From contig NZ_JAATVU010000001.1 in NCBI RefSeq assembly GCF_013184745.1, forward strand, positions 124,001-188,000: a DNA stretch of 64,000 bases, in the 5' to 3' direction. Below are positions 56,107 to 60,265 of the stretch, piece by piece (position 1 is the first letter of the stretch; each line of letters starts with the position of its first letter). The notes below the pieces were generated by a model, which had not been told where the DNA came from, ran no database searches, and was given only the letters and a program-made list of their open reading frames with translations. Source of the stretch: Mangrovicoccus sp. HB161399 (GTDB lineage Bacteria; Pseudomonadota; Alphaproteobacteria; Rhodobacterales; Rhodobacteraceae). A program made the translations under genes and the position numbers.

Positions 56107-56961
56107 TCAGGAGGCGAGCTTCGCGCTTTCCTCGATGTAGATTTCGCGCAGGCGCTTCGCGACCGGGCCCGGCTTGCCGTCGCCCAGCTCGACGCCGTCG
56201 ACCTTGACCACCGGCATCACGAAGGTCGTGGCCGAGGTGATGAAGGCCTCCGCCGCATCCTTGGCCTCCTCGATGGTGAAGGGGCGCTCCTCGACCTGCA
56301 TCTGCGCTTCCTTCGCCATCTTCAGAACGGCCGCGCGGGTGATCCCGTGCAGGATGTCGTTCGACAGCTGGCGGGTGACGATGCGGCCGTCCTTGGTCAC
56401 GATATAGGCGTTGTTCGAGGTGCCCTCGGTCACGAAGCCGTCCTCGACCAGCCAGGCATCGTCGAACCCGGCCTTCTTGGCCGCGGTCTTGGCCATCGAC
56501 GGATAGAGCAGCTGCACCGTCTTGATGTCGCGCCGCGCCCAGCGCTGGTCGTCGGTGACGCCGACCGACAGGCCGGTTTCGGCCTTGGGCGAGTCCACCA
56601 GGCTCATGTGCATGCCGAAGAGCACGACCGTCGGGGCCAGCCCCTCGGGCATCAGGAAGTCGCGGTCGGCGACGCCGCGGGTGATCTGCAGGTAGACGCC
56701 GCCCTCGACGATGGCGTTCCTCTCCACCAGCTCCTTGTGGACGCCCAGCAGCTCTTCGGCGGACATCGGCATCTCGATGCCGAGCTCGCCCAGCGAGCGC
56801 TCCAGCCGGCGCACATGGCCGTCGAAATCGATCAGCTTGCCGCCGAGGACCGAGGTCACCTCGTAGACGCCGTCGCCCATCAGGAAGGCACGGTCGAAGA
56901 TGGAGATCTTCGCCTCTTCCGCGGGCAGGAAATCTCCGTTCAGGTACACGATGCGGGTCAT
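56107..56961 (-). CDS. D-amino-acid transaminase-like, fold type IV aminotransferase
   Basis: 284 residues from the ATG at 56961 with AGAGGA upstream. PLP Lys147 lies in RWARRDIKTVQLLYPS, with DRAFLMGDGVYEV near 23-35 and the phosphate-binding FVTEGTSNNAYIV near 177. The N-terminal VYLNGDFLPAEEAKISIFDR and overall length are those of D-alanine transaminases rather than IlvE. These exchange amino groups between D-Ala, D-Glu and other D-amino acids and keto acids. Third gene of the dgcN-dgcA operon, 16 bases after dgcA. Confidence 0.88.
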   Translation of the reverse strand: MTRIVYLNGDFLPAEEAKISIFDRAFLMGDGVYEVTSVLGGKLIDFDGHVRRLERSLGELGIEMPMSAEELLGVHKELVERNAIVEGGVYLQITRGVADRDFLMPEGLAPTVVLFGMHMSLVDSPKAETGLSVGVTDDQRWARRDIKTVQLLYPSMAKTAAKKAGFDDAWLVEDGFVTEGTSNNAYIVTKDGRIVTRQLSNDILHGITRAAVLKMAKEAQMQVEERPFTIEEAKDAAEAFITSATTFVMPVVKVDGVELGDGKPGPVAKRLREIYIEESAKLAS

Positions 56962-56977
56962 GGATGGGTCCTCTCGG

Positions 56978-57949
56978 TCAGCCCCAGAGACCGGGCTCTG
57001 GCGGATGGATGCCGTCCTGATCGTACAGGATCGGCGTGTCGCGGTCTTCGGCCAGCAGGAGCGGCGCGTCAAGATCGGTCACGCGCGCACCCTGGGCCAG
57101 CATCACCCCGGGCGCCATGGCAAGCGACGAGCCCACCATGCAGCCGACCATGATGCCATAGCCTTCGGCCATCGCCGCCTGCTTCAGCTTCAGCGCCTCG
57201 GTCAGCCCGCCAGTCTTGTCGAGCTTGATGTTGATGACGTCGTACTTGCCCTTGAGATGGTGCAGCGAAGCCCGGTCATGCGCGCTCTCGTCGGCGCAGA
57301 CCGGCACCGGCCGGTCGAGCCCGATCAGCGCTTCGTCATCGGCGGCGGGCAGCGGCTGTTCCACCAGGGTGACGCCGAGCCGGGCGAGATGCGGGGCGAG
57401 ATCGGCATAGACCTCGGCCGTCCAGCCCTCGTTCGCGTCGACGATGATTTCGGATTTGGGCGCGCCCGCGCGGACGGCCTCCAGCCGGGGCATGTCGTCG
57501 GGAGTGCCGAGCTTGATCTTCAGCAGCGGACGGAAGGCGTTCTTCGCGGCGTTGGCCTGCATCGCCTCCGGCTCGTCGAGCCCCAGCGTGTAGGCGGTGA
57601 TGACCGGCCCCGGCGCGGGAAGGCCCGCAAGATCCCAGGCTCGGACGCCGGCCCGCTTTGCCTCCAGATCCCAGAAGGCGCAGTCCACGGCATTGCGCGC
57701 CGCACCCGCGGGCAGCAGATCCTGCAGCGTCTCGCGGGTGACGTCCGCGGGCAGCGAGCGGATCAGGTCGGTGACGCTCTCCTGCGACTCGCCGTAGCGC
57801 GGATAGGGCACGCATTCGCCGCGCCCGGCAATGCCATCCCCGGTCAGGGTGACGGTGATCACCTGCGCCTCGGTCTTCGCCCCCCGCGAGATGCGGAAGG
57901 CCTGGGCCAGGCGGAAGCTTTCGGCCTGCACCTCGATCTTGAGCGTCAT
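56978..57949 (-). CDS. dgcA: N-acetyl-D-glutamate racemase / dipeptide epimerase-like enolase-superfamily enzyme
   Basis: 323 residues. Enolase-superfamily active site complete: LLKIKLG (Lys144, Lys146), DANEGW (Asp171), VEQPLP (Glu197), CADESAHD (Asp220) and INIKLDKTGG (Lys242). The fold is that of L-Ala-D/L-Glu epimerases; genes of this group next to a DUF1611 protein are DgcA enzymes that racemise N-acetyl-D-glutamate. The partner gene upstream supports this reading. Cytoplasmic. Confidence 0.88.
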   Translation of the reverse strand: MTLKIEVQAESFRLAQAFRISRGAKTEAQVITVTLTGDGIAGRGECVPYPRYGESQESVTDLIRSLPADVTRETLQDLLPAGAARNAVDCAFWDLEAKRAGVRAWDLAGLPAPGPVITAYTLGLDEPEAMQANAAKNAFRPLLKIKLGTPDDMPRLEAVRAGAPKSEIIVDANEGWTAEVYADLAPHLARLGVTLVEQPLPAADDEALIGLDRPVPVCADESAHDRASLHHLKGKYDVINIKLDKTGGLTEALKLKQAAMAEGYGIMVGCMVGSSLAMAPGVMLAQGARVTDLDAPLLLAEDRDTPILYDQDGIHPPEPGLWG

Positions 57950-58043
57950 CGCATGTCCTCTCGCACTGACGCGCGCCGGGCCCGGCCCGGCGCTTCCTGA
58001 TGTTCTTGCGGGGCCCCGGGCCGGACCCGGGGCGGGACGGCGC

Positions 58044-59048
58044 TCAGATGCCGTCGAGCGCGTCGACCAGACGGGCCGCGCCCTGGCGGAACGGGTCGAC
58101 GGCGGGCAGGCCCATCTTCTCCTCCAGCTCAGCCAGGTAGGCGTCGCCTTCCTCCGGGATCATGCCCGAGGTGTTGACCGAGATGCCCACGACCTTGCAG
58201 GCCGGATTCGCCACCTGCGCCAGCTGCAGTGCGACGTCGCGCAGCGCCTCCAGCGAGGGCAGCTGGTAGTCCGGAAGACCGCGCATGTGCGGGCGGGTCG
58301 GCTCGTGGCACAGCACCAGCGCGTCGGGCTGGCCGCCATGCACCAGCGCCATGGTCACGCCGGAATAGGAGACGTGGAACAGGCTGCCCTGCCCCTCGAT
58401 CAGGTCCCAGTGATCCGGATCGTTGTCCGGCGTCAGCGCCTCGATGGAGCCCGCCATGAAATCGGCGACCACCGCGTCGAGCGGCACGCCGCCGCCGGTG
58501 ATCAGGATGCCGGTCTGGCCGGTGGCCCGGAAGGTCGCGTTCATGCCGCGCGCGGTCATTTCCTTTTCCATGGCCAGCGCGGTGTACATCTTGCCGACCG
58601 AGCAGTCGGTTCCGACGGCAAGGCAGCGCTTGCCCGGACGCTTCACGCCGTTTGCGATCGGATAGGGCCGGTCGGGCAGGCGCACGTCATAGAGCCGGGT
58701 CCCGGCGCGGGCGGCCGCATCGACCAGGGGCTGCTGGTCGCGCAGCAGCGTGTGCAGGCCCGAGGCGAGGTCGAAGCCCTTCTCCAGCGCCTCGACCAGG
58801 ATCGACATCCAGCTGTCGGAAATGACGCCGCCGCGGTTCGCCACGCCGATCACCAGGGTCTTGGCCCCGGCGGCCCTGGCCTCGTCCAGGGTCATGTCGG
58901 GGATCTTCATGTCGGCATTGCAGCCCGGCAGGCGCAGCTGGCCCACAGCGAAATCCGGCCGCCAGTCGCGGATCCCCTGGGCCACCTTCGCAGCCAGCGG
59001 ATCGGGGGCATCGCCGAGGAACAGCAGATAGGGGTGCTGGATCATCAT
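58044..59048 (-). CDS. dgcN: D-glutamate N-acetyltransferase-type protein (DUF1611)
   Basis: 334 residues, with tandem ATGs at 59048 and 59045; the second has the better spacing from GGAG. P-loop-like GTDCSVGK at 146-153, N-terminal LLFLGDAPDPLAAKVAQGI, and TGQTGILITGGGVPLDAVVA near 180. DUF1611 proteins paired with DgcA have been described as DgcN, which acetylates D-glutamate. It lies 94 bases upstream of dgcA on the same strand, the first gene of the operon. Confidence 0.88.
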   Translation of the reverse strand: MMIQHPYLLFLGDAPDPLAAKVAQGIRDWRPDFAVGQLRLPGCNADMKIPDMTLDEARAAGAKTLVIGVANRGGVISDSWMSILVEALEKGFDLASGLHTLLRDQQPLVDAAARAGTRLYDVRLPDRPYPIANGVKRPGKRCLAVGTDCSVGKMYTALAMEKEMTARGMNATFRATGQTGILITGGGVPLDAVVADFMAGSIEALTPDNDPDHWDLIEGQGSLFHVSYSGVTMALVHGGQPDALVLCHEPTRPHMRGLPDYQLPSLEALRDVALQLAQVANPACKVVGISVNTSGMIPEEGDAYLAELEEKMGLPAVDPFRQGAARLVDALDGI

Positions 59049-59188
59049 TCACTCCGTCATTCATATTCGCGGCGATCATGCGCCGCCGCTCCTGTCTTTC
59101 AACATGAACCCTGCACTGGCATGATGAAACCGCCGATGTGGACGTATCCGCAGGCAAATCTGCCGTTTTTCCGGGACTTCCCGGCATC

Positions 59189-59226
59189 TTGCGCTGCAGC
59201 TGCGACACCTTGCGCCGCATATGCGA
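59189..59226. promoter_or_regulatory. Tandem 17-bp direct repeats between dgcN and mcl1
   Basis: TTGCGCTGCAGCTGCGA at 59189-59205 and TTGCGCCGCATATGCGA at 59210-59226 match at 14 of 17 positions and start 21 bases apart, two helical turns. Each has an internal imperfect dyad around GCA. They lie 80-117 bases upstream of the mcl1 start, in the divergent promoter region shared with dgcN. Confidence 0.55.
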
Positions 59227-59305
59227 AATTCCCGCTTGCAGATGAAGGCGCAAGGATATAACCAAAGCTGGATCAGTTTTGAAACAAAATGACCACGAGG
59301 CCCGT

Positions 59306-60265
59306 ATGAGTTTCCGCATCCAGCCCGCGGCCCCTGCCCGTCCCAACCGCTGCCAGCTCTTCGGCCCGGGCTCCCGCCCGGCCATTTTCGAGAAGATGGC
59401 AAGTTCTGCGGCGGATGTCATCAACCTCGATCTCGAGGACTCGGTCGCGCCCGACGACAAGCCGGAAGCGCGCAGGAACATCATCCAGGCGATCGGCGAC
59501 ATCGACTGGGGCAAGAAGACCCTGGCCGTGCGCATCAACGGGCTCGACACGCCCTACTGGTACCGCGACGTGGTCGACCTGCTGGAGCAGGCTTCCGACC
59601 GGATCGACCAGATCATGATCCCGAAGGTCGGCTGCGCAGGCGACATCTATGCCGTCGACGCGCTGGTCACCGCCATCGAGCGCGCCAAGGGCCGCACCAA
59701 GCCGATCAAGTTCGAGGTGATCATCGAATCCGCGGCAGGCATCGCCCATGTCGAGGAAATCGCCGCGGCCAGCCCGCGGATGGAGGCGATGAGCCTCGGC
59801 GCCGCCGATTTCGCGGCCTCGATGGGGATGCAGACCACCGGCATCGGCGGGACGCAGGAAAACTACTACATGATCCGCGAAGGCGCGAAATACTGGTCGG
59901 ATCCGTGGCACTGGGCGCAGGCCGCCATCGTCGCCGCCTGCCGCACGCATGGCGTTCTGCCGGTCGACGGTCCGTTCGGCGATTTCTCCGATGACGAGGG
60001 CTACCGCGCGCAGGCGCGCCGTTCGGCGACGCTGGGAATGGTCGGAAAATGGGCGATCCACCCCAAGCAGATCGCCATCGCCAACGAGGTCTTCACTCCG
60101 TCCGAGGAAGCCGTGGCCGAAGCGCGCGAGATCCTCGCCGCCATGGAGAAGGCCAAGGCCGAAGGCCTCGGCGCGACCGTCTACAAGGGCCGCCTGGTCG
60201 ACATCGCGTCGATCAAGCAGGCCGAAGTCATCGTGGCCCAGTCCGAGCTGATCGCAAGCAGCTGA
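59306..60265 (+). CDS. mcl1: L-malyl-CoA / beta-methylmalyl-CoA lyase
   Basis: 319 residues from the ATG at 59306, with GAGG upstream. Very close in length and sequence to Mcl1 of Rhodobacter: PARPNRCQLFGPGSRPA, NLDLEDSVAPDDKPEAR, EVIIESAAGIAHVEEIAAAS, LGAADFAASMGMQTTGIGGT and WAIHPKQIAIANEVF. It cleaves beta-methylmalyl-CoA and malyl-CoA in the ethylmalonyl-CoA pathway of acetyl-CoA assimilation. Divergent from dgcN with about 260 bases between. Confidence 0.95.
   Translation: MSFRIQPAAPARPNRCQLFGPGSRPAIFEKMASSAADVINLDLEDSVAPDDKPEARRNIIQAIGDIDWGKKTLAVRINGLDTPYWYRDVVDLLEQASDRIDQIMIPKVGCAGDIYAVDALVTAIERAKGRTKPIKFEVIIESAAGIAHVEEIAAASPRMEAMSLGAADFAASMGMQTTGIGGTQENYYMIREGAKYWSDPWHWAQAAIVAACRTHGVLPVDGPFGDFSDDEGYRAQARRSATLGMVGKWAIHPKQIAIANEVFTPSEEAVAEAREILAAMEKAKAEGLGATVYKGRLVDIASIKQAEVIVAQSELIASS

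Follow-up and report, generated by a model that had tools for sequence, protein, structure and literature searches.

Gene organization of the locus

In this study, we analyzed a stretch of 64,000 nucleotides from Mangrovicoccus sp. HB161399 (contig NZ_JAATVU010000001.1, positions 124,001 to 188,000; hereafter, the window), whose source assembly comprises 7.18 Mb in 323 contigs. Three genes related to D-amino acid metabolism, dgcN, dgcA, and a transaminase gene, lie in this order on the minus strand of the window, and all three were confirmed. A previous reading of the window from its letters alone (the sequence-only reading) had assigned them to an operon for D-amino acid assimilation. The positions in the window are as follows.

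58044-59048, minus strand: dgcN, D-glutamate N-acetyltransferase (DUF1611; NF041892, 551.2 bits; PF07755/PF17396; PDB 7xrj_A)
56978-57949, minus strand: dgcA, N-acetyl-D-glutamate racemase of the enolase superfamily (NF042940, 491.5 bits; 4gfi_A; 1jpd_X)
56107-56961, minus strand: D-amino-acid transaminase of pyridoxal phosphate (PLP) fold type IV (NF005209, 384.3 bits; match to 1daa; active-site residues)

No internal stop codon was found in the frames of the three genes. dgcN and dgcA are separated by 94 nt, and the stop codon of dgcA lies 16 nt from the ATG of the transaminase gene. The listed open reading frame of the transaminase has 321 aa, extends up to 57072, and overlaps dgcA. However, the matches to the family start at residue 38 of this frame or later; hence, the start is very probably the ATG at 56961, which is preceded by GAGAGGA.

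The gene identities given by the sequence-only reading were borne out, as all three proteins passed the curated NCBIfam cut-offs of their families (480 bits for DgcN, 400 for DgcA, and 320 for the transaminase, which falls in the D-amino-acid transaminase subfamily PRK06680). Furthermore, DgcN aligned with 7xrj_A across residues 2-332 (E 1.3e-167), and DgcA matched 4gfi_A with an E value of 2.2e-101.

Specificity of the transaminase

The third gene product had been read as a D-alanine-type transaminase carrying all PLP residues. Indeed, the PLP lysine (DIK) and the glutamate (VTEG) were both observed, together with the D-specific Tyr and Arg. The nearest solved structures were D-alanine or D-amino acid aminotransferases (9pxs, 3lqs, and 1daa), and the Bacillus enzyme 1daa matched with an E value of 8e-46. 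According to a published motif table, the branched-chain enzyme of E. coli has the motifs YxxxxFxGxR and YxR (PMC12429042). Both were absent from the window enzyme, which has MxxxxYxVxS and GxY at these positions, and the score against the branched-chain aminotransferase model TIGR01122 was 154.5 bits, below the cut-off of 245.55. Thus, the profile scores and the active-site motifs agree in supporting a D-type rather than a branched-chain L-type transaminase.

The same table gives FxxxxYxVxK, HxY, and RxH for group I D-transaminases (PMC12429042), whereas the window enzyme has MxxxxYxVxS, GxY, and RxF. In common with the group I enzyme of Bacillus sp. YM-1, it has fold type IV, the equivalents of Tyr31, Tyr90, and Arg98, the PLP lysine, and the glutamate. 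It differs from that enzyme in that the equivalent of His100 is Phe, so that Tyr and Arg of the Tyr-Arg-His carboxylate trap are kept and His is replaced, and in that its score against the D-amino-acid transaminase equivalog TIGR01121 was 241.3 bits, below the cut-off of 277.45. Subsequently, we compared these positions in 94 aligned rows of relatives, nearly all from Rhodobacterales (L004 and L067-L169; coverage >90%, identity >45%); the rows include loci without dgcN and count the second copy of the own genome twice (L004 and L087). The positions of Tyr31, Val33, Tyr90, Arg98, the PLP lysine, and the glutamate were invariant in all 94 rows, and the His100-equivalent (Bacillus YM-1 numbering) was Phe in every one. 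In 20 relatives unlinked to dgcN (17 of the same class, one of them without DgcN, and three of other classes), Tyr and Arg were kept throughout and the His100-equivalent was His in 10 and Phe in 10. We therefore call the window enzyme a D-amino-acid transaminase with a putative variant carboxylate trap, outside the strict definition of group I; the change from His to Phe would be a natural variant of the D-specific trap.

Linkage within Rhodobacterales

The association of the three genes was examined in 196 genomes of the order (Rhodobacterales, judging from the named DgcN relatives). A DgcN match was found in 167 of them, in 161 cases above the cut-off, and the transaminase family was above the cut-off in all 196. 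When positions could be compared (114 genomes), dgcN and the transaminase gene were less than 6 kb apart in 112, belonging to 61 genera, and the transaminase gene lay downstream of dgcN on the same strand in 111 of these. The exceptions were G124, with a distance of 62 kb, and G017, with the two genes on different contigs (G and L numbers are our handles for genomes and loci). All 19 further genomes drawn from the 36 remaining ones with DgcN showed the same arrangement, giving 131 of 133 in total.

We also inspected 80 named loci, which are the best DgcN matches and not a random sample; the nearest DgcN, with 96% identity, belongs to Mangrovicoccus ximenensis, and the majority of the others came from Rhodobacteraceae genera. 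The whole trio was present in 65 of the 66 loci whose sequence extended 4.5 kb or more to the right; the only one without it was a metagenome-assembled genome labelled Balneolaceae. dgcA followed within 400 nt of dgcN in 79 of the 80 loci (the 79 where dgcA was found), and the gap between dgcA and the transaminase gene was less than 50 nt in 46 of 73. The linkage of dgcN and the transaminase gene within the order is thus far beyond chance, and the genome-wide association that the sequence-only reading had called for exists, as neighbours, inside Rhodobacterales.

In 18 named loci and one locus without DgcN, dgcA and the transaminase gene are at least 400 nt apart and the gap holds inserted genes, which fall into small clusters of at most four. 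By eye and without a profile search, some of these genes resemble a Nudix protein, a membrane transporter, or a dihydroxy-acid dehydratase; the dehydratase-like gene, about 620 codons in length, occupies this position in L094, L098, L107, and L115.

Proposed pathway and its last step

From these results, the trio is probably an operon for D-amino acid assimilation, by which D-alanine and other D-amino acids, for instance those of bacterial walls, would be converted via D-glutamate and N-acetyl-L-glutamate to L-glutamate. The transaminase would form pyruvate and D-glutamate from D-alanine and 2-oxoglutarate, and it probably also accepts some other D-amino acids, giving other oxo acids. DgcN would acetylate D-glutamate with acetyl-CoA to N-acetyl-D-glutamate, which DgcA would convert to N-acetyl-L-glutamate, and a deacetylase of the ArgE type encoded elsewhere would then release L-glutamate; alternatively, N-acetyl-L-glutamate may feed arginine synthesis. 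Acetylation would keep this flow apart from MurI and the cell-wall pool of D-glutamate. The transamination is reversible and would run toward degradation because acetylation by DgcN draws D-glutamate off. In this scheme, we infer from the linkage that the transaminase is joined to the DgcN and DgcA steps; the direction, the substrates, co-transcription, and the working of the three genes as one route are likewise inferred.

The sequence-only reading had noted that no deacetylase is encoded in the window. When the whole genome was searched, 18 Peptidase_M20 matches were found, three of which were above the cut-off of the ArgE model TIGR01892; two of the three were confirmed in a second check, and all three lie on contigs other than that of the trio. 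The genome also encodes ArgJ (374 bits, cut-off 298). ArgJ makes N-acetylglutamate by recycling, and a separate ArgE is needless for arginine synthesis; hence, one of the three ArgE-type proteins could release L-glutamate from N-acetyl-L-glutamate and may be the last-step deacetylase. The missing enzyme therefore has candidates elsewhere in the genome. By eye, no deacetylase could be made out among the insertions that separate dgcA from the transaminase gene in the 18 named loci and the DgcN-less one.

The presence of ArgJ also bears on another explanation, in which N-acetyl-L-glutamate made from D-glutamate serves arginine synthesis and not catabolism. N-acetyl-L-glutamate is the textbook precursor of arginine, but the recycling by ArgJ already yields it, and the role described for DgcN and DgcA is the use of D-glutamate (PMC12363236, PMC10845958). 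We consider such a biosynthetic route very improbable.

Divergent neighbour and intergenic motif

On the other side of dgcN, the following features were found.

59049-59278, no strand: intergenic region (230 nt) from which dgcN and the malyl-CoA lyase gene diverge
59279-60265, plus strand: divergent neighbour, malyl-CoA lyase like (4l9y malyl-CoA lyase, E 1.5e-188)

Of the 73 named loci with enough sequence on this side, 58 have the lyase-like gene beside dgcN in divergent orientation; this conserved neighbour probably stands outside the pathway. The motif TTGCG-N8-CGCAA was observed in 20 of the 58 intergenic regions between dgcN and the lyase gene (mean of 0.05 of 58 in single-base shuffles), and either TTGCG or CGCAA was present in all 58, against 22.3 of 58 in the shuffles. 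The window's own intergenic region does not contain the full motif. In the four cases read, it begins 37-55 nt from the edge on the lyase side. It was found in 0 of 17 regions upstream of dgcN without the lyase gene, 12 of which contain one of the halves, and in 2 of 13 regions upstream of the lyase gene without dgcN. The idea of a shared promoter site was set aside; the motif more probably belongs to the lyase gene, where TTGCG/CGCAA may perhaps be bound by a regulator.

Distribution of the genes and alternative explanations

Several observations weigh against the trio being an assimilation operon. In the transaminase, Phe stands in place of the His of the canonical carboxylate-binding triad, and the own genome carries another member of this transaminase subfamily (NF005209, 362.2 bits). 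Outside the order, DgcN matches were found in 50 genomes, of which 45 were used (G209, G331, G456, G526, and G563, with weak matches, were dropped); the transaminase gene was within 6 kb of dgcN in 0 of 26 genomes of the same class, and the linkage was missing in 17 of 19 genomes with DgcN from other classes of the same phylum, the remaining two (G352 and G488) carrying the whole trio. Inside the order, every one of the 29 genomes lacking a DgcN match kept the transaminase (nine of the 29 were assigned by elimination), and DgcA was above the cut-off in 12 of the 29 (G002, G018, G047, G062, G099, G132, G155, G156, G171, G172, G175, and G191). Furthermore, the wide use of D-amino acids by strains of Nautella (Alphaproteobacteria) was credited to deaminases and not to transaminases, on the ground that branched-chain and aromatic D-amino acids are poor substrates of the known D-transaminases (PMC4836201); this evidence therefore weighs against the transaminase as the sole route.

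The second transaminase gene (L087:2213-3067, G000 contig 2) encodes a protein 56% identical to the window copy. Its neighbours are PxpA (5-oxoprolinase subunit A), a DapA-like aldolase, an SDR enzyme, and, by eye, a TRAP-type transporter, and together they suggest a further route for D-amino acids or oxoproline.

By mere presence, the association was weak outside the order: within the same class, the transaminase exceeded the cut-off in 21 of the 26 genomes with DgcN and in 10 of the 16 without it, and among the 19 DgcN-positive genomes of other classes it did so in 5. The co-occurrence to which the sequence-only reading had pointed thus stood as tight linkage in the order, whereas by presence it was weak outside, and the transaminase was also found without DgcN. 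In a tree of the transaminases, the smallest clade with the 92 rows of the order has a support of 0.36 and includes seven others, so that the tree does not settle the origin of the G488 copy; the copies of G352 and G546 form a pair (0.99).

Since the transaminase was kept in all 29 DgcN-negative genomes of the order, it has a role of its own without DgcN. It could thus be a D-alanine/D-glutamate balancer for cell-wall precursors, kept for itself and standing beside dgcN and dgcA because all three handle D-glutamate, with DgcN and DgcA only draining excess D-glutamate. The occurrence of the transaminase in the whole order, including the genomes without DgcN, favours this explanation. In addition, 16 neighbourhoods of the transaminase gene were read in genomes with no DgcN (14) or a weak one (2); in 13 of these, the gene is still located at that of the malyl-CoA lyase, with dgcA between the two in 5 of the 13. 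In G057, the intact transaminase gene is directly preceded by a match to the final 33 positions of DgcA (contig 7, 7818-7916), probably a relic of a lost operon. On the other hand, MurI-type matches were found in 194 of 196 genomes of the order and can supply D-glutamate, and the tight spacing of dgcA and the transaminase gene suggests a common use. We regard the balancer explanation as unlikely, though less so than the other alternatives given here.

The MurI-type matches were above the model cut-off of 146.65 bits in only 64 of the 196 genomes. The MurI-like protein of the own genome scored 144.8 bits, just under it, and scores went down to 139.9 among the matches listed. G085 and G133 gave E values of only 2.7e-23 and 1.8e-24, and no match was found in G013 and G141. 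With MurI-type matches in 194 of 196 genomes, the wall D-glutamate is probably independent of the transaminase. The idea that the transaminase substitutes for a missing MurI was rejected on the same count, though most of the matches are under the cut-off.

The occurrence of DgcA without DgcN suggests a second use of DgcA, for example on L-Ala-Glu dipeptides. If DgcA were mainly an L-Ala-D/L-Glu epimerase of murein peptide recycling, the operon would be a route for peptidoglycan dipeptides with DgcN as a side branch. DgcA does match the epimerase 1jpd (E 1.4e-80) and has conserved segments in common with it, including DLD, which we take to bind the amino group of the dipeptide in the epimerase. 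However, its score against the epimerase model NF011708 was 309.3 bits, under the cut-off of 343, whereas the cut-off of the DgcA model was exceeded, and dgcA closely follows dgcN in nearly all of the named loci. A main role as a dipeptide epimerase is accordingly improbable.

These distributions are most simply explained if the trio is old in the order and the transaminase was retained through several losses of dgcN, either alone or together with dgcA.

Relation to published systems and significance

D-glutamate breakdown by DgcN and DgcA has been published (Yu et al. 2023 ISME J, as cited in PMC12363236 and PMC10845958), and dgcN was described as the key gene of an irreversible and energetically costly pathway that racemizes acidic D-amino acids and the corresponding amides (PMC12363236). 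The window has the same two enzymes and adds the D-amino-acid transaminase that follows them. In Pseudoalteromonas CF6-2, a D-alanine aminotransferase is used in D-alanine breakdown, according to the title of the report (Yu et al. 2022 AEM, cited in PMC12363236). The Rhodobacteraceae strain LCG007 grows on D-Glu, D-Ala, D-Ser, D-Phe, and D-Lys, and is listed with a transaminase, a D-glutamate acetyltransferase, and an N-acetyl-D-glutamate racemase (PMC11747546); the available part of that paper names the three enzymes as separate genes and describes no operon, coupling, or mutants. Rhodobacterales have been described as lacking the muropeptide importer AmpG (PMC9790009). The D-amino acids of bacterial walls are part of slowly degraded marine organic matter (PMC10845958).

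The sequence-only reading knew of no description of the three-gene coupling. None was found in the titles and abstract openings searched, with most subscription papers, and the text of the founding paper, outside their reach; the D-glutamate part, by DgcN and DgcA, is already published. The steady grouping of enzymes of known types in one order suggests a shared pathway, and the coupling is the most likely reading, as a combination of known enzymes found largely in one order, with a transaminase that clearly serves other needs too. We put forward more tentatively, as a possibility just short of even, a dedicated three-gene funnel of long standing in Rhodobacterales, in which the His-to-Phe transaminase would collect the amino groups of several D-amino acids into D-glutamate, acetylation by DgcN would drive the reversible transamination to its end and open a single entry to L-glutamate, and genomes that lost dgcN would redirect DgcA and the transaminase to a different use.

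Rhodobacterales are common marine consumers. If the proposed coupling is true, an order-wide operon joins general D-transamination to an irreversible exit of D-glutamate, and this would explain how Rhodobacterales feed on D-alanine and other D-amino acids.

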